Of a stretch of DNA of 64,000 nt, positions 51,513 through 63,718 are shown piece by piece. The first letter of the stretch is position 1. The number at the start of each line of letters is the position of its first letter. This stretch comes from Gemmatimonadota bacterium (GTDB lineage: Bacteria; Gemmatimonadota; Gemmatimonadetes; Longimicrobiales; Gaopeijiaceae). The notes below the pieces were generated by a model. The model was not told where the DNA came from and did not search any database. It was given only the letters and a program-made list of their open reading frames with translations. Location: assembly GCA_013002885.1 (NCBI GenBank), contig JABDLS010000051.1, positions 1 through 64,000 of the forward strand. Direction: 5' to 3'. Position numbers and translations under genes: made by a program.

Positions 51513-53747
51513 CTACGGCGCCATCCGGTGGGGCGAGCCGCGAAGCCCGCCCTCGGAAACGATCTGGAACGCCAGAGCATCCTCCTCGAGAGCTCGCACC
51601 ACTTCGGGGTCCCCGCCGGAGAGCTCGACGACGTTCGACAGCTGAAGAGCCAGCACGTAGTACTGGAAGGGGATCATGAGGGTCGACCGGTCCGCCCATA
51701 TGTCACGGTCACGAAGACCTCGGAAGAGGTAGACCTCGTCGTACAGCCTTAGGCTCTGCTCCAGGTCGTACCAGTCGGCGCCGTACTCAGGCGCCCCCTG
51801 CACCAGCCCCAGATGCTCGTCGGTCTCGAGGTTTCTGAGATCCAGCTTGGTCGTGAGGCCGTGGCGGACACCCCATCGCTCCAACCCGAGCTGGGTCATG
51901 AGGCCGGCCGACGACGAGAAGAAGATGGGACGCTCTCCGACGGAATCGTTGATGATCCGGAGCGCCAGTTGCTGGGCCCGGTCCAGGACCATTCCCTGGG
52001 GATAGGTGACCGCCAGCTTCGGAAAGGGGATGGTCATGTCTTCCGGCAATCGCATGGCCGAGACCGAATCCATCACATCCTGGCTCAGCACCGTGACGGA
52101 TTGGCTCGGCACGGGGCGCTCGTCGTGGAGGTCCGGAAACGTCCCAGGGTCGTAGGTGCGCTGCCTGGCCGGAGACGTCAGATCCTGGAGCTGCTTCGGA
52201 TACCAGTCGGTGTAGAGGTACTGGCCGACGACGACGGTCACGTCTTTCCGGATGCCCTCGACCTCCTGGAGATACCAGAGGGGAAAGGTGTCATTGTCGC
52301 CATTGGTGAAGAGCACGCCGTAAGGTTCGACACTCATGAGGAGGTCGAACGCCCAATCCCTGGCTGCGTAGTCAGCGCTCCGGGTGGCCCAGCTCCAGTT
52401 GAGCATGAGAGGGATGAACGCGATGACCAGGACAGGCGATGCGGCGCCGAAGTTCCTTCGTGTGCCGCCCATGGCCGAGGCCAAGGTGTGCCAGGTCCAC
52501 GCGACACCCATTCCCGCCAGTGTCCCCCAGAAGAGGAAGCCGGCGACGAAGAAGTAGTCGCGCTCGCGAACCTCCCGCAGAGACTGGTCCAGACCGGCGT
52601 GGAGGGAGTACCCATGCCGGAAGTTGAGGTAGACGACCAAGCCGACCGTGAGGGTGCCCGCGAGTACGGCGAGGTAGGCGAAAAGGGGTCGGTCCACCCT
52701 CCACACCGACGCCAGCCCCACCGCACCGAGGACCAGGAAGAGAAGGGTGAACGGGAGACGCGCCGTCTGAGGAAGCTCGGATGGGTGCAGGCCGCGGGCC
52801 CATTGCCACTCGAAGTACTGCAGGTACGTGGCCATCTGGGCGCCGAACGTCGCCTTCCGCTGGGTGACAGGCGGCGTCTGGTACTGCTCTCGCGTCAGGT
52901 TCGCAGACAGGCCAGGACATCCCGCCCTACCCATGGTGAACACAGACACCGCCGCGCCGGTGGCCGACTCGCAGGTCGGGTCCCCTTCGTTGATGACCGG
53001 GTCGAGTGAGGCACGGATGGGGAGGACGAAGTTGAATGAAATTCCAACCGCCACCAGGATGGCGGCACGCACCACGAAGTCCGCCCGAAGGAGTCGAGGA
53101 GCCCCCGCCATGAGCACCAGAACCCCGAGGGCCGGCGCGGGAAGCACCGACATGAGATGGCTGGTCGAACCGATGGCCATGAGGAAGACCGCCGTGAGGA
53201 GCAAGCGCTCACTCCCCGCTTCGCCCCGTCGATCATACCAACGAACCGCGAGCCACGAGACCGCGGCGATGATCATCACCGAGAGCGTGTACACCTTCTC
53301 GTTTACGTTCGACTGATTCCAGACCGTGAACGCGGTGGCGCCGATGATCGCCGATGCGCCCGCCCCATACCTGGCGAGGGTGGGTTGGGCGAAATACCCC
53401 ACGAGTACACGGTGGGCGACCAGGAAGAAGAACCCCGTCGCTACGGCGCTGGTCGCCGCCGCGAAGAGGTTGATCCGAACGGCCACCGAGAGGCCTGTGG
53501 GCGCCAGGAGGAGGCTCCACACCTTGGCCACGACGACGAAGAACGGATTTCCCGGCGGATGGGGAATCCCGAGGATGTGCGCTGTGGCGATGTACTCGCT
53601 GGTGTCCCAAAACGCCGTCGTCGGCGCCAGCGTCGCCACGTACAGAAGGAAAGCCCCCAACCCCGCCACGACCGCACCCAGCCAAGGCGTTCCGTCCGCC
53701 CGTTCCCCGGCCCCGATGGACGGGTTCTTCGAATCGTCGTCAGCCAT
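51513..53747 (-). CDS. DUF2723/GT117-type membrane protein
   Basis: LGAFLLYVATLAPTTAFWDTSEYIATAHILGIPHPPGNPFFVVVAKVWSLLL, LDPVINEGDPTCESATGAAVSVF, LFTNGDNDTFPLWYLQEVEGIRKDVTVV. Confidence 0.92.
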   Translation of the reverse strand: MADDDSKNPSIGAGERADGTPWLGAVVAGLGAFLLYVATLAPTTAFWDTSEYIATAHILGIPHPPGNPFFVVVAKVWSLLLAPTGLSVAVRINLFAAATSAVATGFFFLVAHRVLVGYFAQPTLARYGAGASAIIGATAFTVWNQSNVNEKVYTLSVMIIAAVSWLAVRWYDRRGEAGSERLLLTAVFLMAIGSTSHLMSVLPAPALGVLVLMAGAPRLLRADFVVRAAILVAVGISFNFVLPIRASLDPVINEGDPTCESATGAAVSVFTMGRAGCPGLSANLTREQYQTPPVTQRKATFGAQMATYLQYFEWQWARGLHPSELPQTARLPFTLLFLVLGAVGLASVWRVDRPLFAYLAVLAGTLTVGLVVYLNFRHGYSLHAGLDQSLREVRERDYFFVAGFLFWGTLAGMGVAWTWHTLASAMGGTRRNFGAASPVLVIAFIPLMLNWSWATRSADYAARDWAFDLLMSVEPYGVLFTNGDNDTFPLWYLQEVEGIRKDVTVVVGQYLYTDWYPKQLQDLTSPARQRTYDPGTFPDLHDERPVPSQSVTVLSQDVMDSVSAMRLPEDMTIPFPKLAVTYPQGMVLDRAQQLALRIINDSVGERPIFFSSSAGLMTQLGLERWGVRHGLTTKLDLRNLETDEHLGLVQGAPEYGADWYDLEQSLRLYDEVYLFRGLRDRDIWADRSTLMIPFQYYVLALQLSNVVELSGGDPEVVRALEEDALAFQIVSEGGLRGSPHRMAP

Positions 53748-53756
53748 GGTTCTCCC

Positions 53757-55010
53757 CTACCCCGCGATCCCCGTTCGGGCGACTTCGTCGACGAGCTCCA
53801 GCACACGGTCGATCTCGTCCGGTCGATTGTAGACGTGGGTCGAAAGTCGCATCCAGCCGTAATCGTACTCGCCGATCACACGTGTCCGGACCGACGCTGC
53901 ACGGGAAAGGTGGCGCTGCAGATCGGGGGACTCCACCCCGTCGACGGAAAAAGACACCATGCCTCCCTTGAGGGCTTCTGCAGCCGGCGTCACCACATGA
54001 ACGCCTTCGATCGCCGCCAGGCCGTCCTCCAGTCGGCCGCGGAGGTACCGCACCCGCGCCTCCACCCGATCCGGGCCGAGTGCCAAGAGGTACTCGGACG
54101 CGGCAAAGAGCCCCGCCATTCTGGACTCGTCGATGGTGCCCATGTGGTTGAAGCGATGTGCGCTCAAAGCGTGATCGTCCCAACCCCCCGACGCGAGTGT
54201 AGGCCAGAGCTTCGACCGCCACTCGGGAGCGAGGTAGAGGAGGCCACACCCTTGGGGCGCCATCACCCACTTGTGGGGCGAGCTGGCATAGAAGTCTCCG
54301 CCGAGGCCTCCGACATCGACGGAGAGCATGCCCGGGGGGTGGGCCCCGTCGACGCAGAACACGATCCCTTGATCGCGGCAGCGCCGAGCGAGTTCGACGA
54401 CGGGCATCAGGGTTCCGGTGGTGAAGGTCATATGGGACACGCTCACCACCCGAGTGTCTGGCGACACGGCATCCCAGACCGCGTCGGCGAGTTCCTCTTC
54501 ACTTGCGGCAGGCACGGGGAGCGCCGCCACCGATAGGCGGACGCCCCGCCGGGCCTCGAGAACTCTCCATGGCTCGAGCCCGCCGATGTGCTCGTGGTCG
54601 GTGGTTACGACCTCCTCGCCCTCGAACAGCTCCAGGCCGTTGGCGACGAAGCTCATGGCTTCCGTGGTGTTCCTGGGAAAGACGAAGCCCTCAGCGTCGC
54701 CTCCCACGAGTCTGGCGACGGACGCCTTGAGGTCATCCCAGGCGATTCCAGGCGGGAACGTGGCCGCCACACGCCGGACATGCTCCGTAACCGCATCGAC
54801 GACGACCCGAGGAGACGGACCGAGTGTGCCGTTGTTCAGGTAGATCCGATCGTCGGGAATGAGGAACGTAGATCGGACCTGGTACCAGAACGCCTCGTCG
54901 TCAGGCGCCCCACCCGACGCGAGCTGGGTGCCGAAGGCCTCGACGGCCCTGGGCCACGCCAGCGTGGCACCGCCCAGGACCGAGAGGAAGTGCCGGCGGT
55001 CGAGATTCAC
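53757..55010 (-). CDS. Class V aminotransferase-fold PLP enzyme (isopenicillin-N-epimerase-like) with Tat-type signal
   Basis: GTG at 55010: MNLDRRHFLSVLGGATLAWPRAVEAFG (RRxFL), IYLNNGTLGPSPRVVVDAV, TTDHEHIGGLEPWRVLEARRGV, FCVDGAHPPGMLSVDVGGLGGDFYASSPHKWVMAPQGCGLLYL (Schiff-base Lys context). Confidence 0.9.
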   Translation of the reverse strand: MNLDRRHFLSVLGGATLAWPRAVEAFGTQLASGGAPDDEAFWYQVRSTFLIPDDRIYLNNGTLGPSPRVVVDAVTEHVRRVAATFPPGIAWDDLKASVARLVGGDAEGFVFPRNTTEAMSFVANGLELFEGEEVVTTDHEHIGGLEPWRVLEARRGVRLSVAALPVPAASEEELADAVWDAVSPDTRVVSVSHMTFTTGTLMPVVELARRCRDQGIVFCVDGAHPPGMLSVDVGGLGGDFYASSPHKWVMAPQGCGLLYLAPEWRSKLWPTLASGGWDDHALSAHRFNHMGTIDESRMAGLFAASEYLLALGPDRVEARVRYLRGRLEDGLAAIEGVHVVTPAAEALKGGMVSFSVDGVESPDLQRHLSRAASVRTRVIGEYDYGWMRLSTHVYNRPDEIDRVLELVDEVARTGIAG

Positions 55011-55020
55011 TCGACCCTCG

Positions 55021-55467
55021 TCAGTCGTCGGTCTTCACCGCGATGAAGGAGATCTCGATGGACGCCCCTGCCACCAGGCCGGCTACGGCCACCGTCACCC
55101 TGGACGGTGCATCGCCCCCCTCGAAGTACTGAGCGTAGGCCTCGTTCATCTCGGAATAGCCGGCGACGTCGGTGAGGTAGACCGTGGCGCGAACGATGTC
55201 ATGGTAGTCCATGCCCAACTCGGTCAGCAGTTCCCCGAAGGCCCGCATGATGTTGTGGGTCTCGGCAGCAACTCGGCCCTCCGTCATGGCGCGGGTCTCT
55301 GCGGTGGCGCCGAGCTTGCCTGACAACCAGTAGGTGTTGTCGACCTGAATGGCCGCGCTGAATGGCGTCCGCGAGGATGGCTGGTGCGCGATGCGAGGCC
55401 CGTCCTGGGCCGCGACAGGCTGGACGATGAACGCGGCGGCGGCGAGCGCGAGGACGATACGCTTCAC
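55021..55467 (-). CDS. RidA family protein with N-terminal signal peptide
   Basis: MKRIVLALAAAAFIVQPVAAQDGPRIAH (signal), PFSAAIQVDNTYWLSGKLGAT...AAETHNIMRAFGELLTELGMDYHDIVRATVYLTDVAGYSEMNEAYAQYFEGGDAPSRVTVAVAGLVAGASIEISFIAVK. Confidence 0.92.
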   Translation of the reverse strand: MKRIVLALAAAAFIVQPVAAQDGPRIAHQPSSRTPFSAAIQVDNTYWLSGKLGATAETRAMTEGRVAAETHNIMRAFGELLTELGMDYHDIVRATVYLTDVAGYSEMNEAYAQYFEGGDAPSRVTVAVAGLVAGASIEISFIAVKTDD

Positions 55468-55561: not shown

Positions 55562-56659
55562 ATGTCCGCAATCAGCAGCCGAGTCGTCCGATACGCACGG
55601 GCCTGGGCCATGGGGCCTGACGACGTGGTAGAGGACGAGATCATCATCGATCGTGATGGAACGTCCATCCCGGCGACGATCGCGCGCCCCCGAGGTATGT
55701 CGGGCCCTCTGCCGGCGTGGGTGGTGCTTCACGGCATCACGCGCCCGGGGCGTGCCCACGCTCAACTGGTTCGTTTTACCCGGTCGGTGGCGTCGGCGGG
55801 ACTGGTCACCATCGTACCGGAGGTGCCTGAGTGGCGGGAGCTTTCGCTGGCGCCCTCGCTGACCGTTCCTACGGTGGCCGCTGCCATCGAGGGTATTCGG
55901 GACGCGGGATTCGTTCGAGGCGAGCAGCTCGGCCTCGTCGGGTTCTCTTTCGGAGCGCCTCACGCCATCGCCGCCTCCTCGGACCGCCGGATCCGAAACG
56001 AGATTGCCGGAGTGTGTGGCTTCGGAGGGTACTGCGACATCGGTGAGACCATCCGATTCATGATGACCGGCCACCACGAGTGGGAGGGCCACCATCACCA
56101 CCTGCGACCGGACCCCTACGGCCGGTGGATCGTCGCAGCCAACTACCTGACCGCGGTACCCGAGTATGCCGAGGCCACCGACGTCGCGGACGCGCTGCGG
56201 ACGCTGGCGAAACACGCCGGGGACGTAGGGGCGCCGTCCTGGGATTCCGTGTACCACCCGAAGATCCGAACCCTACGGGCGTCGGTGGCTGACGAGCGCC
56301 AATGGCTCTTCGACGCCTTCGCCGTCGCGCCGGAGGGGTCGAGCTCCAAGCACTCGACACCCGAGGGGTTGGCCGAAGGGCTCGTGGCCGGCGCACTGCT
56401 CAGGGACCCGTCCATCGATCCCATGACAGCCTTCGCCGAGGTGAGAGGAGAAGTCCACCTCATCCACGGTAGGCGAGATCACCTGATCCCCTTCACCGAG
56501 GCCCACCGACTCGAGGCGGCCCTTTCCCGTGCCCGCCGACGTCTCACCGTCACCCGGCTGTTCGGGCATTCGGCCCAGGAGGGCTTGCCACTCTGGTCTT
56601 CGCTTGCCGAGGTCCCGCGTTTCGCTCGTGCCCTCAGCGAAGTCCTGACGACAGTGTGA
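55562..56659 (+). CDS. Alpha/beta hydrolase
   Basis: PAWVVLHGITRPGRAHAQLVRFTRSVASAGLVTIVPEVPEW, EQLGLVGFSFGAPHAIAA (GxSxG), EVHLIHGRRDHLIPFTEA. Confidence 0.85.
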   Translation: MSAISSRVVRYARAWAMGPDDVVEDEIIIDRDGTSIPATIARPRGMSGPLPAWVVLHGITRPGRAHAQLVRFTRSVASAGLVTIVPEVPEWRELSLAPSLTVPTVAAAIEGIRDAGFVRGEQLGLVGFSFGAPHAIAASSDRRIRNEIAGVCGFGGYCDIGETIRFMMTGHHEWEGHHHHLRPDPYGRWIVAANYLTAVPEYAEATDVADALRTLAKHAGDVGAPSWDSVYHPKIRTLRASVADERQWLFDAFAVAPEGSSSKHSTPEGLAEGLVAGALLRDPSIDPMTAFAEVRGEVHLIHGRRDHLIPFTEAHRLEAALSRARRRLTVTRLFGHSAQEGLPLWSSLAEVPRFARALSEVLTTV

Positions 56660-59992: not shown

Positions 59993-61306
59993 CTAGTCGG
60001 CGGATCGCGCCGCTTCGTCGAGGTCTACGGGGTCGGCCACCCGAGGTGCGAACCCGCCGGTGATCAGCCGGGCTCCTCTCGACTGGACCAGCCACTGCCA
60101 GGCCCAGTGGACCATGACCAGGAGCTTGTTGCGGAACCCTACGAGGAACGCCACGTGGACGACGCTCCAGAGGAGCCAGGCGAGGACGCCGCCGAAGGTC
60201 CGGCCACCTACGTCCGCGACCGCCCTCGCCCGACCGATGGTGGCCATCTCGCCCTTGTTGCGGTAGCGGAACGCGGGACGCCGCGGCGGGGGCGATGCGT
60301 TCGACAGCTCCCGGGCAATGATCTCGCCGACGAACGCACCCATCTGAATGGCTCCCTGGGCCACACCAGGCACGGGCTCACCCGTGGCCGCGTCGACCTG
60401 GGCTGCGATATCGCCGACGGCGAAGGCACGAGAGTAGCCGGGAAGAGAGCAGTCCCCCTCCACCTCGATCCGCCCCTGCTTGTCGATGTCCACCCCGAGC
60501 GTACGGGTGAGATCAGAAGCCTCCACGCCGGCGGCCCAGATGATATTGGCTGCGGCGACGCTATCGTCGCCCACCCAGACGCATCCGTCGTCGACTTCGG
60601 TGACCATGGTGTCCAGGCGAACCTGGACGCCGAGGCCCTCCAGCTGTTCCAAGGCTCGTCTGGAGGCCTCTTCAGACATCGTCGGCAGGAGGCGGGGCCC
60701 ACCCTCGAGCAGATACACACGGGCGGTCTTCGTATCGACCCGGCGGAAATCCTCGGGTATGGACATGGCGGCGATCTCACGAAGCGCCCCTGCCATCTCC
60801 ACGCCCGTCGGTCCGCCTCCGATGACGACGAAGGTGAGCTTTGCCCGCCGCGCCTCCTCATCCTCCTCTAGTTCGGCCTCCTCGAAAGCCATGAGCACCC
60901 GGCGGCGGATCTCGATAGCGTCATCGATCGTCTTGAGGCCCGGCGCCAACCGGGCCCATTCGTCGTTGCCGAAGTAGGCGGTGCGGGCTCCGGCAGCGAG
61001 GACGAGCCAGTCGTAGGCGACTTCCTCGGCGCCGACGTGGATGGCCTGGCCGGCGAGGTCGACCGATGTCACCTCCCGGAGGAGCACCTGGACGTTCTTC
61101 TGCTTTCGGACGATGGCGCGGACGGGCTCGGCGATGTCGGCCGGCGACAGCGCGGCGGTGGCGACCTGGTAGAGAAGGGGCTGGAAGAGGTGGTGGTTGC
61201 GCGCGTCCAGAAGGAGGACCTCGCAATCGGTCTGTGCCAGCTTCCGGACGGCCTCGAGACCACCGAATCCCGCGCCCACGACCACCACTCGTGGGCGACG
61301 ACTCAT
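59993..61306 (-). CDS. Type II NADH dehydrogenase (NDH-2)-like FAD-dependent oxidoreductase
   Basis: PRVVVVGAGFGGLEAVRKLAQTDCEVLLLDARNHHLFQPLLYQVATAALSPADIAEPVRAIVRKQKNVQVLLREV, FVVIGGGPTGVEMAGALREIA, GYSRAFAVGDIAA; C-terminal hydrophobic anchor. Confidence 0.94.
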   Translation of the reverse strand: MSRRPRVVVVGAGFGGLEAVRKLAQTDCEVLLLDARNHHLFQPLLYQVATAALSPADIAEPVRAIVRKQKNVQVLLREVTSVDLAGQAIHVGAEEVAYDWLVLAAGARTAYFGNDEWARLAPGLKTIDDAIEIRRRVLMAFEEAELEEDEEARRAKLTFVVIGGGPTGVEMAGALREIAAMSIPEDFRRVDTKTARVYLLEGGPRLLPTMSEEASRRALEQLEGLGVQVRLDTMVTEVDDGCVWVGDDSVAAANIIWAAGVEASDLTRTLGVDIDKQGRIEVEGDCSLPGYSRAFAVGDIAAQVDAATGEPVPGVAQGAIQMGAFVGEIIARELSNASPPPRRPAFRYRNKGEMATIGRARAVADVGGRTFGGVLAWLLWSVVHVAFLVGFRNKLLVMVHWAWQWLVQSRGARLITGGFAPRVADPVDLDEAARSAD

Positions 61307-61914
61307 GCGCCGGGGCCCGGGAAGGGGATGGGGAGTGGAGGGAGGTCGAAGGCTCCCGGAAAGTCCGCCTCGACTTCCTTCTGTTTGCCGCTCCAGGCCT
61401 CTATGTCCACCCGGTACACCGTGGTTCGGGCGAGTTCGTCGTCTGTCGAGGGGCGGTAGTCCCGCCCCGGCTCGAGATGAGGTGCATACTTGTCGAGAAG
61501 CATCTGGAGGGCGTCTTTGGCTTCGGCCTCATCTCCTACGATGCGCCCGGTACCGAAGGCCGTCACGCCGGCATACTCCACGCTGAACTCGAGGGCCTCC
61601 GGAGCGGGCAGCAGGCGCCCCATGCCGGCGACGCTGAAGGCCACTTTCTCGGGTGCGACGAGGTTGTCGCGAGTCCTGCCGGTACGGTGTGTGTGGAGGT
61701 AGATGCAGTGCCGGTCCCGATCGTACACGTAGAGGTTCGAGTTCAGGAAGGGCTGACCCTCGTCGTTCACCGTGGCCAGAAAGCCGTAGGGAGCCACCTC
61801 GAAGAATTCCCTGACCCACGCCTCGTCCTTCCCGCGATCACGTCGGCGAAGCTGGCTTCGTGGGTCGTCGATGCCCGCATTGTCAGCTCCGACCTTGGGG
61901 CCGTTCTCCGTCAT
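61303..61914 (-). CDS. Pyridoxamine 5'-phosphate oxidase/FMN-binding split-barrel family protein
   Basis: FFEVAPYGFLATVNDEGQPFLNSNLYVYDRDRHCIYLHTHRTGRTRDNLVAPEKVAFSVAGMGRLLPAPEALEFSVEYAGVTAFGTGRIV. Confidence 0.88.
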   Translation of the reverse strand: MTENGPKVGADNAGIDDPRSQLRRRDRGKDEAWVREFFEVAPYGFLATVNDEGQPFLNSNLYVYDRDRHCIYLHTHRTGRTRDNLVAPEKVAFSVAGMGRLLPAPEALEFSVEYAGVTAFGTGRIVGDEAEAKDALQMLLDKYAPHLEPGRDYRPSTDDELARTTVYRVDIEAWSGKQKEVEADFPGAFDLPPLPIPFPGPGA

Positions 61915-61988: not shown

Positions 61989-62504
61989 CTACAGGTACAA
62001 CCGCTCGATGAGCTGACGGTGCCAGAGCTCATGGCCGGCGATGATCCACGGAAAGCTGCGCACCGTGAAGTCGTATCCGCTCGCCCGTCCCCGGCGGGTC
62101 GCTGCCCTGTCCTCCATCGAGGCGAAAAGGTGGACAACGGATCGGCGAACCGCGATCCACTCCTTGGTCAGATCGGACATCGGACGGTCGTGGGCGTTGG
62201 AACGAGCGGCCCATTCGTCTTGATCCATCGACGGCAGATCGGCCCCATCGGACCGCGCCATGACCAGCCCCCGAAATGCGAACATCCGTTCGGTGTCGAT
62301 GAGGTGACCGACCACCTCTCGCAGGCTCCACTTCCCCTCTTCATACCTGTACACCTCCCGGTCGGCAGGGACCTCGAGCAGATCGAGTGTCCCCGGGAGC
62401 TGATCACGGAGGGTCTCGAGAATCGAGCCTTCGGGTACCTGAGCGATGTAGCGTGCATAGTACTCCGCATGCTCCTTCGGATCTGGCCTGTTCCAGGCGC
62501 TCAT
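61989..62504 (-). CDS. DinB family protein
   Basis: ATG at 62504: MSAWNRPDPKEHAEYYARYIAQVPEGSILETLRDQLPGTLDLLEVPADREVYRYEEGKWSLREVVGHLIDTERMFAFRGLVMARSD...WIIAGHELWHRQLIERLYL. Confidence 0.9.
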   Translation of the reverse strand: MSAWNRPDPKEHAEYYARYIAQVPEGSILETLRDQLPGTLDLLEVPADREVYRYEEGKWSLREVVGHLIDTERMFAFRGLVMARSDGADLPSMDQDEWAARSNAHDRPMSDLTKEWIAVRRSVVHLFASMEDRAATRRGRASGYDFTVRSFPWIIAGHELWHRQLIERLYL

Positions 62505-63718
62505 CGAGCGGCGCCGGCCGTGCCGAGCTCCCCGGTCCCCCGGTCCTCCGGGCCGATGAGTCCATCCATGTCTTCGATGGTCCGTGTCGATGGAGGCCGC
62601 TGACGCTGGAGAATGCGAGCCACCTCTTCGGCCTCTCTCCACGCCCGAAGGACGTTCTCGCCTGCGAGCTTCGCGAGCTCATCTTCCGACCAACCGCGTC
62701 GAACGAGCTCCTCGAACAGGGCCGGGAACTTCGACACGTCTTCCAGCCCCACGGGTGTCGACTCGATCCCGTCGTAGTCGGAACCGATGCCGACATGGTC
62801 GATGCCCGCCAGGGCAGCGATGTGCTCGATATGATCGGCGACGTCGGCGATGGTGGCTTGGTCGTTGGACGTCAGGAAGCTCGGGACGAATGTCACCATG
62901 ACGACACCACCGTTCTCAGGGAGCCGCCGCAACACCTGATCTGGCACATTCCTCGGGTGGTCGTGGACACCACGGGCAGAAGCATGGGACCAGATCACCG
63001 GCGCCTCGGCCACATCGAGGACGTCATTCATGGTAGCGGGTGACGTGTGGGAGATGTCGACGAGCATCCCCATGCGGTTCATTTCCCGGACCACCTCTCG
63101 GCCGAAATCGGTGAGACCGCCGTGGCGCTCCTCGTCGCAGCACGCGTCGGCCCAGTCGAGCGTGCCGTTGTGAGTGAGCGTCATGTAGCGTACACCGAGG
63201 TCGTAAAAGGCGCGCAACGATCCCAGCGAGTTCTCTATGGCGTGCCCACCCTCCATCCCCAGCATGGAGGCGATCCGGCCCTCACCGTACACGGCTTCCA
63301 GATCCGAGGCGGTCAGCGCAAGACCGAAGGCCTCAGGGTACTTGTCGATGATCTGGCGACCGATGTCGATCTGTTCGAGCTGGACCTTCGCCGCTCCCTC
63401 CTCCACCGCGTCGTACGGGATATAGACCGACCAGAACTGGGCCCCCACGCTGCCGGCGTGTAGTCGTGCGATGTCGGTATGGAACGGGGTCGAACCCCGG
63501 AGATCATGGGCCGGCGCCTCGACGTCGTGGGGCCCCTCCACGCTGTTGCGGATGGCCCACGGAAGATCGTTGTGCCCGTCGATGAGGGGCGTTCGATCGA
63601 GAACGCGCCGGACGATGTCGGCTGGCGTCTCCTGGGCCTCGGTCGGAGCGGGAACGAGGGGCGCGACGACGAAGGCGAGCGTCGCGGCCGTGAGAAGCGG
63701 TCGGGTGATTCGAAGCAT
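62501..63718 (-). CDS. M19 family membrane dipeptidase with signal peptide
   Basis: MLRITRPLLTAATLAFVVAPLVPAPTEAQ, RTPLIDGHNDLPWAIRN, MEGGHAIENSLGSLRAFYDLGVRYMTLTHNGTLDWADACCDE, VDISHTSPATMNDVLDVAEAPVIWSHASARGVHDHPRNVPDQVL, HVGIGSDYDGIESTP. Confidence 0.94.
   Translation of the reverse strand: MLRITRPLLTAATLAFVVAPLVPAPTEAQETPADIVRRVLDRTPLIDGHNDLPWAIRNSVEGPHDVEAPAHDLRGSTPFHTDIARLHAGSVGAQFWSVYIPYDAVEEGAAKVQLEQIDIGRQIIDKYPEAFGLALTASDLEAVYGEGRIASMLGMEGGHAIENSLGSLRAFYDLGVRYMTLTHNGTLDWADACCDEERHGGLTDFGREVVREMNRMGMLVDISHTSPATMNDVLDVAEAPVIWSHASARGVHDHPRNVPDQVLRRLPENGGVVMVTFVPSFLTSNDQATIADVADHIEHIAALAGIDHVGIGSDYDGIESTPVGLEDVSKFPALFEELVRRGWSEDELAKLAGENVLRAWREAEEVARILQRQRPPSTRTIEDMDGLIGPEDRGTGELGTAGAAR

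Follow-up and report, generated by a model that had tools for sequence, protein, structure and literature searches.

Gene organization of the locus

The DNA analyzed here (the window, 64,000 nucleotides in full) lies on contig C95. The draft genome to which it belongs (G000) measures 4.0 Mb, and its relatives among public contigs are Gemmatimonadota MAGs. Read along the minus strand, a RidA-type gene (55467-55021; 148 aa) is followed by a class V PLP-dependent enzyme gene (55010-53757; 417 aa), which is separated by 9 nt from a TMEM260-like gene (51513-53747, minus strand; PF11028, 131 bits), a syntenic neighbor with no evident functional link. Also syntenic is a divergent dienelactone-hydrolase-like (DLH) gene on the plus strand (55562-56659), for which the PF01738 score is just under the cut-off. 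Both ORFs of the central pair were present as a first-pass annotation of this DNA had described them, on the same strand and with a gap of 10 nt (55011-55020) between the RidA stop and the PLP enzyme start; each begins with GTG. The RidA start is preceded by a good Shine-Dalgarno sequence (CAGGAGAGACATC-GTG), and a GGAG-type site occupies the same position before RidA in most orthologs. Elsewhere on the minus strand, the window also encodes a pyridoxamine-5'-phosphate-oxidase-like protein (61303-61914), a homolog of which is nearer the RidA block at locus L010, and an M19 dipeptidase with a signal peptide (62501-63718), ~7 kb upstream of RidA.

Predicted export and active site of the RidA protein

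The protein encoded at 55021-55467 belongs to the Ribonuc_L-PSP domain family (PF01042, 93.4 bits versus a cut-off of 27.3), and its score with the RidA subfamily model NCBIfam TIGR00004 (93.9) is below the curated cut-off of 106.25. By its sequence features, the N-terminus MKRIVLALAAAAFIVQPVAAQ is a Sec-type signal, with the predicted signal peptide (MKRIVLALAAAAFIVQPVAA) covering residues 1-20 (55408-55467, minus strand). The signal peptide read in the first pass thus held up, and the orthologs that we inspected carry a similar Sec signal, except for a few (genomes G051 and G052 and some others) that have a lipobox instead. In contrast to the window proteins, a paralog encoded at locus L001 of the same genome starts MPRKALSSPTASAIGPYS, without a signal. 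Another Rid-family protein of this genome (L007; G000:C42:27492-27890) has a Tat-like N-terminus, MNDNTTRRDFFGGAARVAVGG.

Residues Arg123 (55099-55101, minus strand) and Glu138 (55054-55056, minus strand) line up with the Arg and Glu of solved RidA structures and are invariant in 16/16 orthologs, consistent with the catalytic pair originally proposed by alignment. They are the equivalents of Arg105 (E. coli TdcF numbering) and Glu120, which mark the RidA-Rid3 group able to hydrolyze imines, the Arg being the feature that separates Rid groups predicted to hydrolyze imines from the other groups (PMC4433059). At the position of Tyr17 the protein has Phe, a conservative change according to the same study (PMC4433059). 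The structure model (pLDDT 73) is disordered in the signal region. On the best reading of these features, the RidA protein is a candidate periplasmic enamine/imine hydrolase.

Predicted Tat export and active site of the PLP enzyme

The N-terminus of the PLP enzyme, MNLDRRHFLSVLGGATLAWP, carries the RRxFL motif noted in the first pass, within a twin-arginine-type region of residues 1-27 (DRRHFLSVLGGATLAWP; 54930-55010, minus strand). Residues R5, R6, F8, L9, W19, and P20 do not vary among 8 orthologs, and diverged paralogs with different hydrophobic stretches still keep the RRxF pattern. We called the export signals of both proteins from features of the sequences, from their conservation, and from TatC being encoded in the genome; with an S/T-RRxFLK-like motif and a hydrophobic stretch as well, the PLP enzyme is predicted to be a Tat substrate. 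The invariant Trp-Pro (W19-P20) lies just past the Tat hydrophobic stretch, which is odd for a cleaved signal. Three more class V enzymes of this genome (loci L052, L055, and L056) have Tat-like N-termini.

As the export calls rest on such features and a cleaved signal would not usually conserve W19-P20 so strictly, the signals could be non-functional and the pair cytoplasmic, or the PLP enzyme could be anchored on the inner side of the membrane. We consider this very improbable, because orthologs and paralogs keep RRxF[LFV] while varying in their hydrophobic regions, the RidA orthologs show AQ-type cleavage sites or lipoboxes, and the genome encodes TatC.

Assignment of the enzyme to class V (Aminotran_5) is supported by PF00266 (158 bits versus 21.5) and by Lys247 (54270-54272, minus strand), the predicted Schiff-base lysine, which is invariant, stands in the intact SSPHKW context reported earlier, and in alignments falls on the HK motif that PvdN shares with cysteine desulfurases. 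The enzyme also retains H246, D221, H139/H141, and Arg388 (53847-53849, minus strand); the latter is invariant, aligns with an Arg that is likewise conserved in PvdN and the cysteine desulfurases, and is presumably, judging from the family, the residue that binds the substrate alpha-carboxylate. Enzymes of class V in which an Arg binds the carboxylate are known to use amino acids as substrates.

The best PDB profile match was PvdN (5i90, E=7e-43), aligned from the RR motif onward; because PvdN is Tat-exported and periplasmic, an exported PLP enzyme of this sort is a known kind. A Foldseek search with the enzyme model, which is of moderate confidence (pLDDT 74), matched both SufS and PvdN, and this PDB fold search fails to separate the two. 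Membership in either group was rejected: the NCBIfam PvdN equivalog model scored 118.9 against a cut-off of 650, and there is no Cys at the aligned catalytic-loop position (RTRVIGEYDYGWMRLS), so that by this loop criterion the enzyme is not a cysteine desulfurase of the SufS/IscS type.

The RidA-PLP pair recurs in related genomes but is not obligate

We surveyed 121 genomes of the family and detected a PLP enzyme ortholog in 24, of which 20, spread over 7 genera, have RidA directly upstream. Two genomes from a different family (L141 and L142) show this order as well, with no match to a DLH or TMEM260 neighbor. PLP ortholog genomes usually also carry the exported RidA ortholog: when both genes were scored by genome (both, 16; PLP only, 3; RidA only, 11; neither, 64), the Fisher test gave p 2e-8, and when scored by genus (7/2/5/26 in the same order), p 0.001, both values ignoring relatedness. 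Pairing is nevertheless not obligate, as 12 family genomes have a RidA ortholog without a PLP ortholog (~11 of them with RidA right beside TMEM260) and 4 have the reverse. In the tree, RidA-only loci occupy several separate positions among paired loci, and repeated loss of the PLP gene, with RidA being retained, is therefore probable.

A second Tat class V clade, found in four genomes (G067, G068, G075, and G076), has RidA just downstream, that is, in the opposite order, and a lipobox or lipoprotein signal is visible in 3/4 of these RidAs. In trees, both its RidA and its PLP enzyme stand apart from the window proteins. This second, separate pairing is the best evidence for a functional association. 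A third arrangement, with convergent genes, is present in genomes G033 and G034. An apparent RidA-aminotransferase fusion in genome G038 (L196) was rejected, as the two domains lie in different frames of neighboring genes.

That genomes may lose one of the two genes and keep the other would fit RidA and PLP genes that are functionally unrelated neighbors, or an exported Rid with a role other than deamination. Both versions are unlikely in our assessment, given the invariance of Arg and Glu in RidA, the recurrence of the pairing, and the co-occurrence of the two genes.

Rid proteins with predicted export signals in Gemmatimonadota

As a background sample we used 12 near-complete Gemmatimonadota genomes, where we counted 60 places with a Rid gene and 92 matches to class V. 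With only three Rid-class V pairs within 1.5 kb (0.5 expected), two of them convergent and hence not operonic, a general rule that Rid genes adjoin class V genes was rejected. Reading N-termini by eye, which makes the count approximate, we judged ~21 of ~58 Rid proteins to be exported; all three close pairs involve such Rids (Fisher p 0.04), and most exported Rids are not beside class V PLP genes. These counts indicate that predicted export is a common trait of Rids in this phylum, with no fixed link to class V enzymes.

Other exported Rids showed different architectures and neighbors. Triple-domain (3x) Rid proteins with signal peptides were found at L190, L192, and L208 (genomes G034, G033, and G089), and the G089 gene sits between two PQQ-dehydrogenase ORFs. 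The 3x-RidA form is already known (PMC4433059); we found no description of an exported version. In genomes of family f4, an exported Rid gene lies near an M19 membrane-dipeptidase gene (L132, L133, L137, L140, and L144), and Rid signals were present in both N-termini read at these loci.

These observations bear on a broader alternative, in which RidA protects the space outside the cytoplasm in general from enamines and imines of many origins, be it peptidases that process dehydro-peptides, oxidases, or several Tat PLP enzymes, and its adjacency to the PLP gene reflects a lineage-specific arrangement within a syntenic block and no specific partnership. It is compatible with the 12 genomes that keep RidA without a PLP ortholog, with export signals on about a third of the Rids in the 12 background genomes, most of them away from class V genes, with the M19 dipeptidase and PQQ dehydrogenase neighbors, and with DLH and TMEM260 genes that are as syntenic as the pair itself. 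Against this alternative we counted the separate Tat class V pairings in the second clade and, with other flanks, in another family, and a RidA-PLP spacing that stays within tens of bases where the gap between PLP and TMEM260 genes is ~1 kb (L022, L026, and L034). We regard it as a serious possibility, if a rather doubtful one.

Discussion

We propose, as a reading about evenly balanced between being right and wrong, that a periplasmic RidA imine hydrolase works with a Tat-exported, PvdN-like PLP enzyme, RidA being a favored, non-exclusive partner. From the gene order, the signal-like N-termini, the active-site residues, conservation, the recurrent pairing, and TatC, we infer localization, chemistry, substrate, and the coupling of RidA to the PLP enzyme. 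The PLP enzyme would fold and bind its cofactor while still inside the cytoplasm and then leave by Tat, and RidA would be exported via Sec. Acting on an amino acid or an amino-acid-like compound, the PLP enzyme would release an enamine or imine outside the cytoplasm, as its product or by a side reaction, most likely through beta-elimination to 2-aminoacrylate. RidA would then hydrolyze the released compound to a 2-oxoacid and ammonia (pyruvate and ammonia from 2-aminoacrylate), thereby sparing PLP enzymes whose cofactor is presumably irreplaceable outside the cytoplasm. As PvdN has to take up PLP in the cytoplasm before Tat export (PMC6206403), harm done to a cofactor after export would carry a high cost. 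RidA may favor Tat PLP enzymes as partners and yet also serve other imine sources.

In weighing this proposal we counted for it the tight pair, the second clade, the co-occurrence, the intact Arg and Glu, and the PvdN precedent, and against it the RidA-only and PLP-only genomes, the small number of close pairs, and the retention of the amino group by PvdN. The first-pass annotation had envisaged a periplasmic PLP reaction with a dedicated deaminase; the signals, active sites, and pairing favor such a reaction, but "dedicated" is too strong, because 12 genomes are RidA-only, 4 are PLP-only, and exported Rids are mostly not beside class V genes. Mammalian M19 dipeptidase acts on dehydro-dipeptides; if the M19 enzymes encoded near exported Rids in family f4 do likewise, they would yield enamines and therefore fit a general periplasmic Rid role.

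More broadly, and tentatively, since we rate it at slightly below even, part of the PLP chemistry of Gemmatimonadota may be extracytoplasmic, with Rids (Sec-secreted, lipoprotein, and triple-domain) exported to hydrolyze enamines and imines there and the RidA-PLP pair being one recurrent module. The Rid paradigm has so far been cytoplasmic: in the Rid-family papers PMC4433059 and PMC5619798, periplasm, secretion, and signal peptides go unmentioned, and an incomplete set of open-access literature yielded no description of a RidA that is exported or periplasmic. It is the exported RidA that is unusual here; it and the recurrent pairing look new. Given that related genomes share the pairing, reactive by-products of vitamin-B6 chemistry may also be neutralized beyond the cytoplasm. 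Should these proteins act at the sites that their signals indicate, the control of metabolite damage would extend to the periplasm, and a RidA neighbor would be a clue to the function of many uncharacterized Tat-exported class V PLP enzymes.

Among known systems, PvdN, a periplasmic enzyme of pyoverdine maturation in Pseudomonas, most resembles the PLP enzyme: both are class V enzymes of fold type I with an N-terminal Tat motif and similar HEH, DGxH, and HKW motifs, and PvdN demonstrates that class V enzymes can pass through Tat with PLP already bound (PMC6206403). The two differ in sequence (24% identity in the Foldseek alignment; NCBIfam PvdN score 119 versus 650) and in context, as the PLP enzyme adjoins RidA and no pyoverdine gene was recognized nearby; PvdN itself retains the amino group. 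Periplasmic transaminase A (PtaA) is another Tat-exported, PLP-loaded periplasmic enzyme (PMC6206403), which differs by its description as a normal transaminase. The cysteine desulfurases SufS and CsdA and the cystine lyase C-DES share the fold and PLP site, but the PLP enzyme lacks the catalytic-loop cysteine of the desulfurases. Finally, cytoplasmic RidA, an enamine/imine deaminase whose genes have been found clustered with those of PLP enzymes (PMC4433059), shares its fold family and the Arg and Glu with the window RidA, whereas the latter differs in its Sec signal, its TIGR00004 score (93.9 < 106.25), and its Phe in place of Tyr17.
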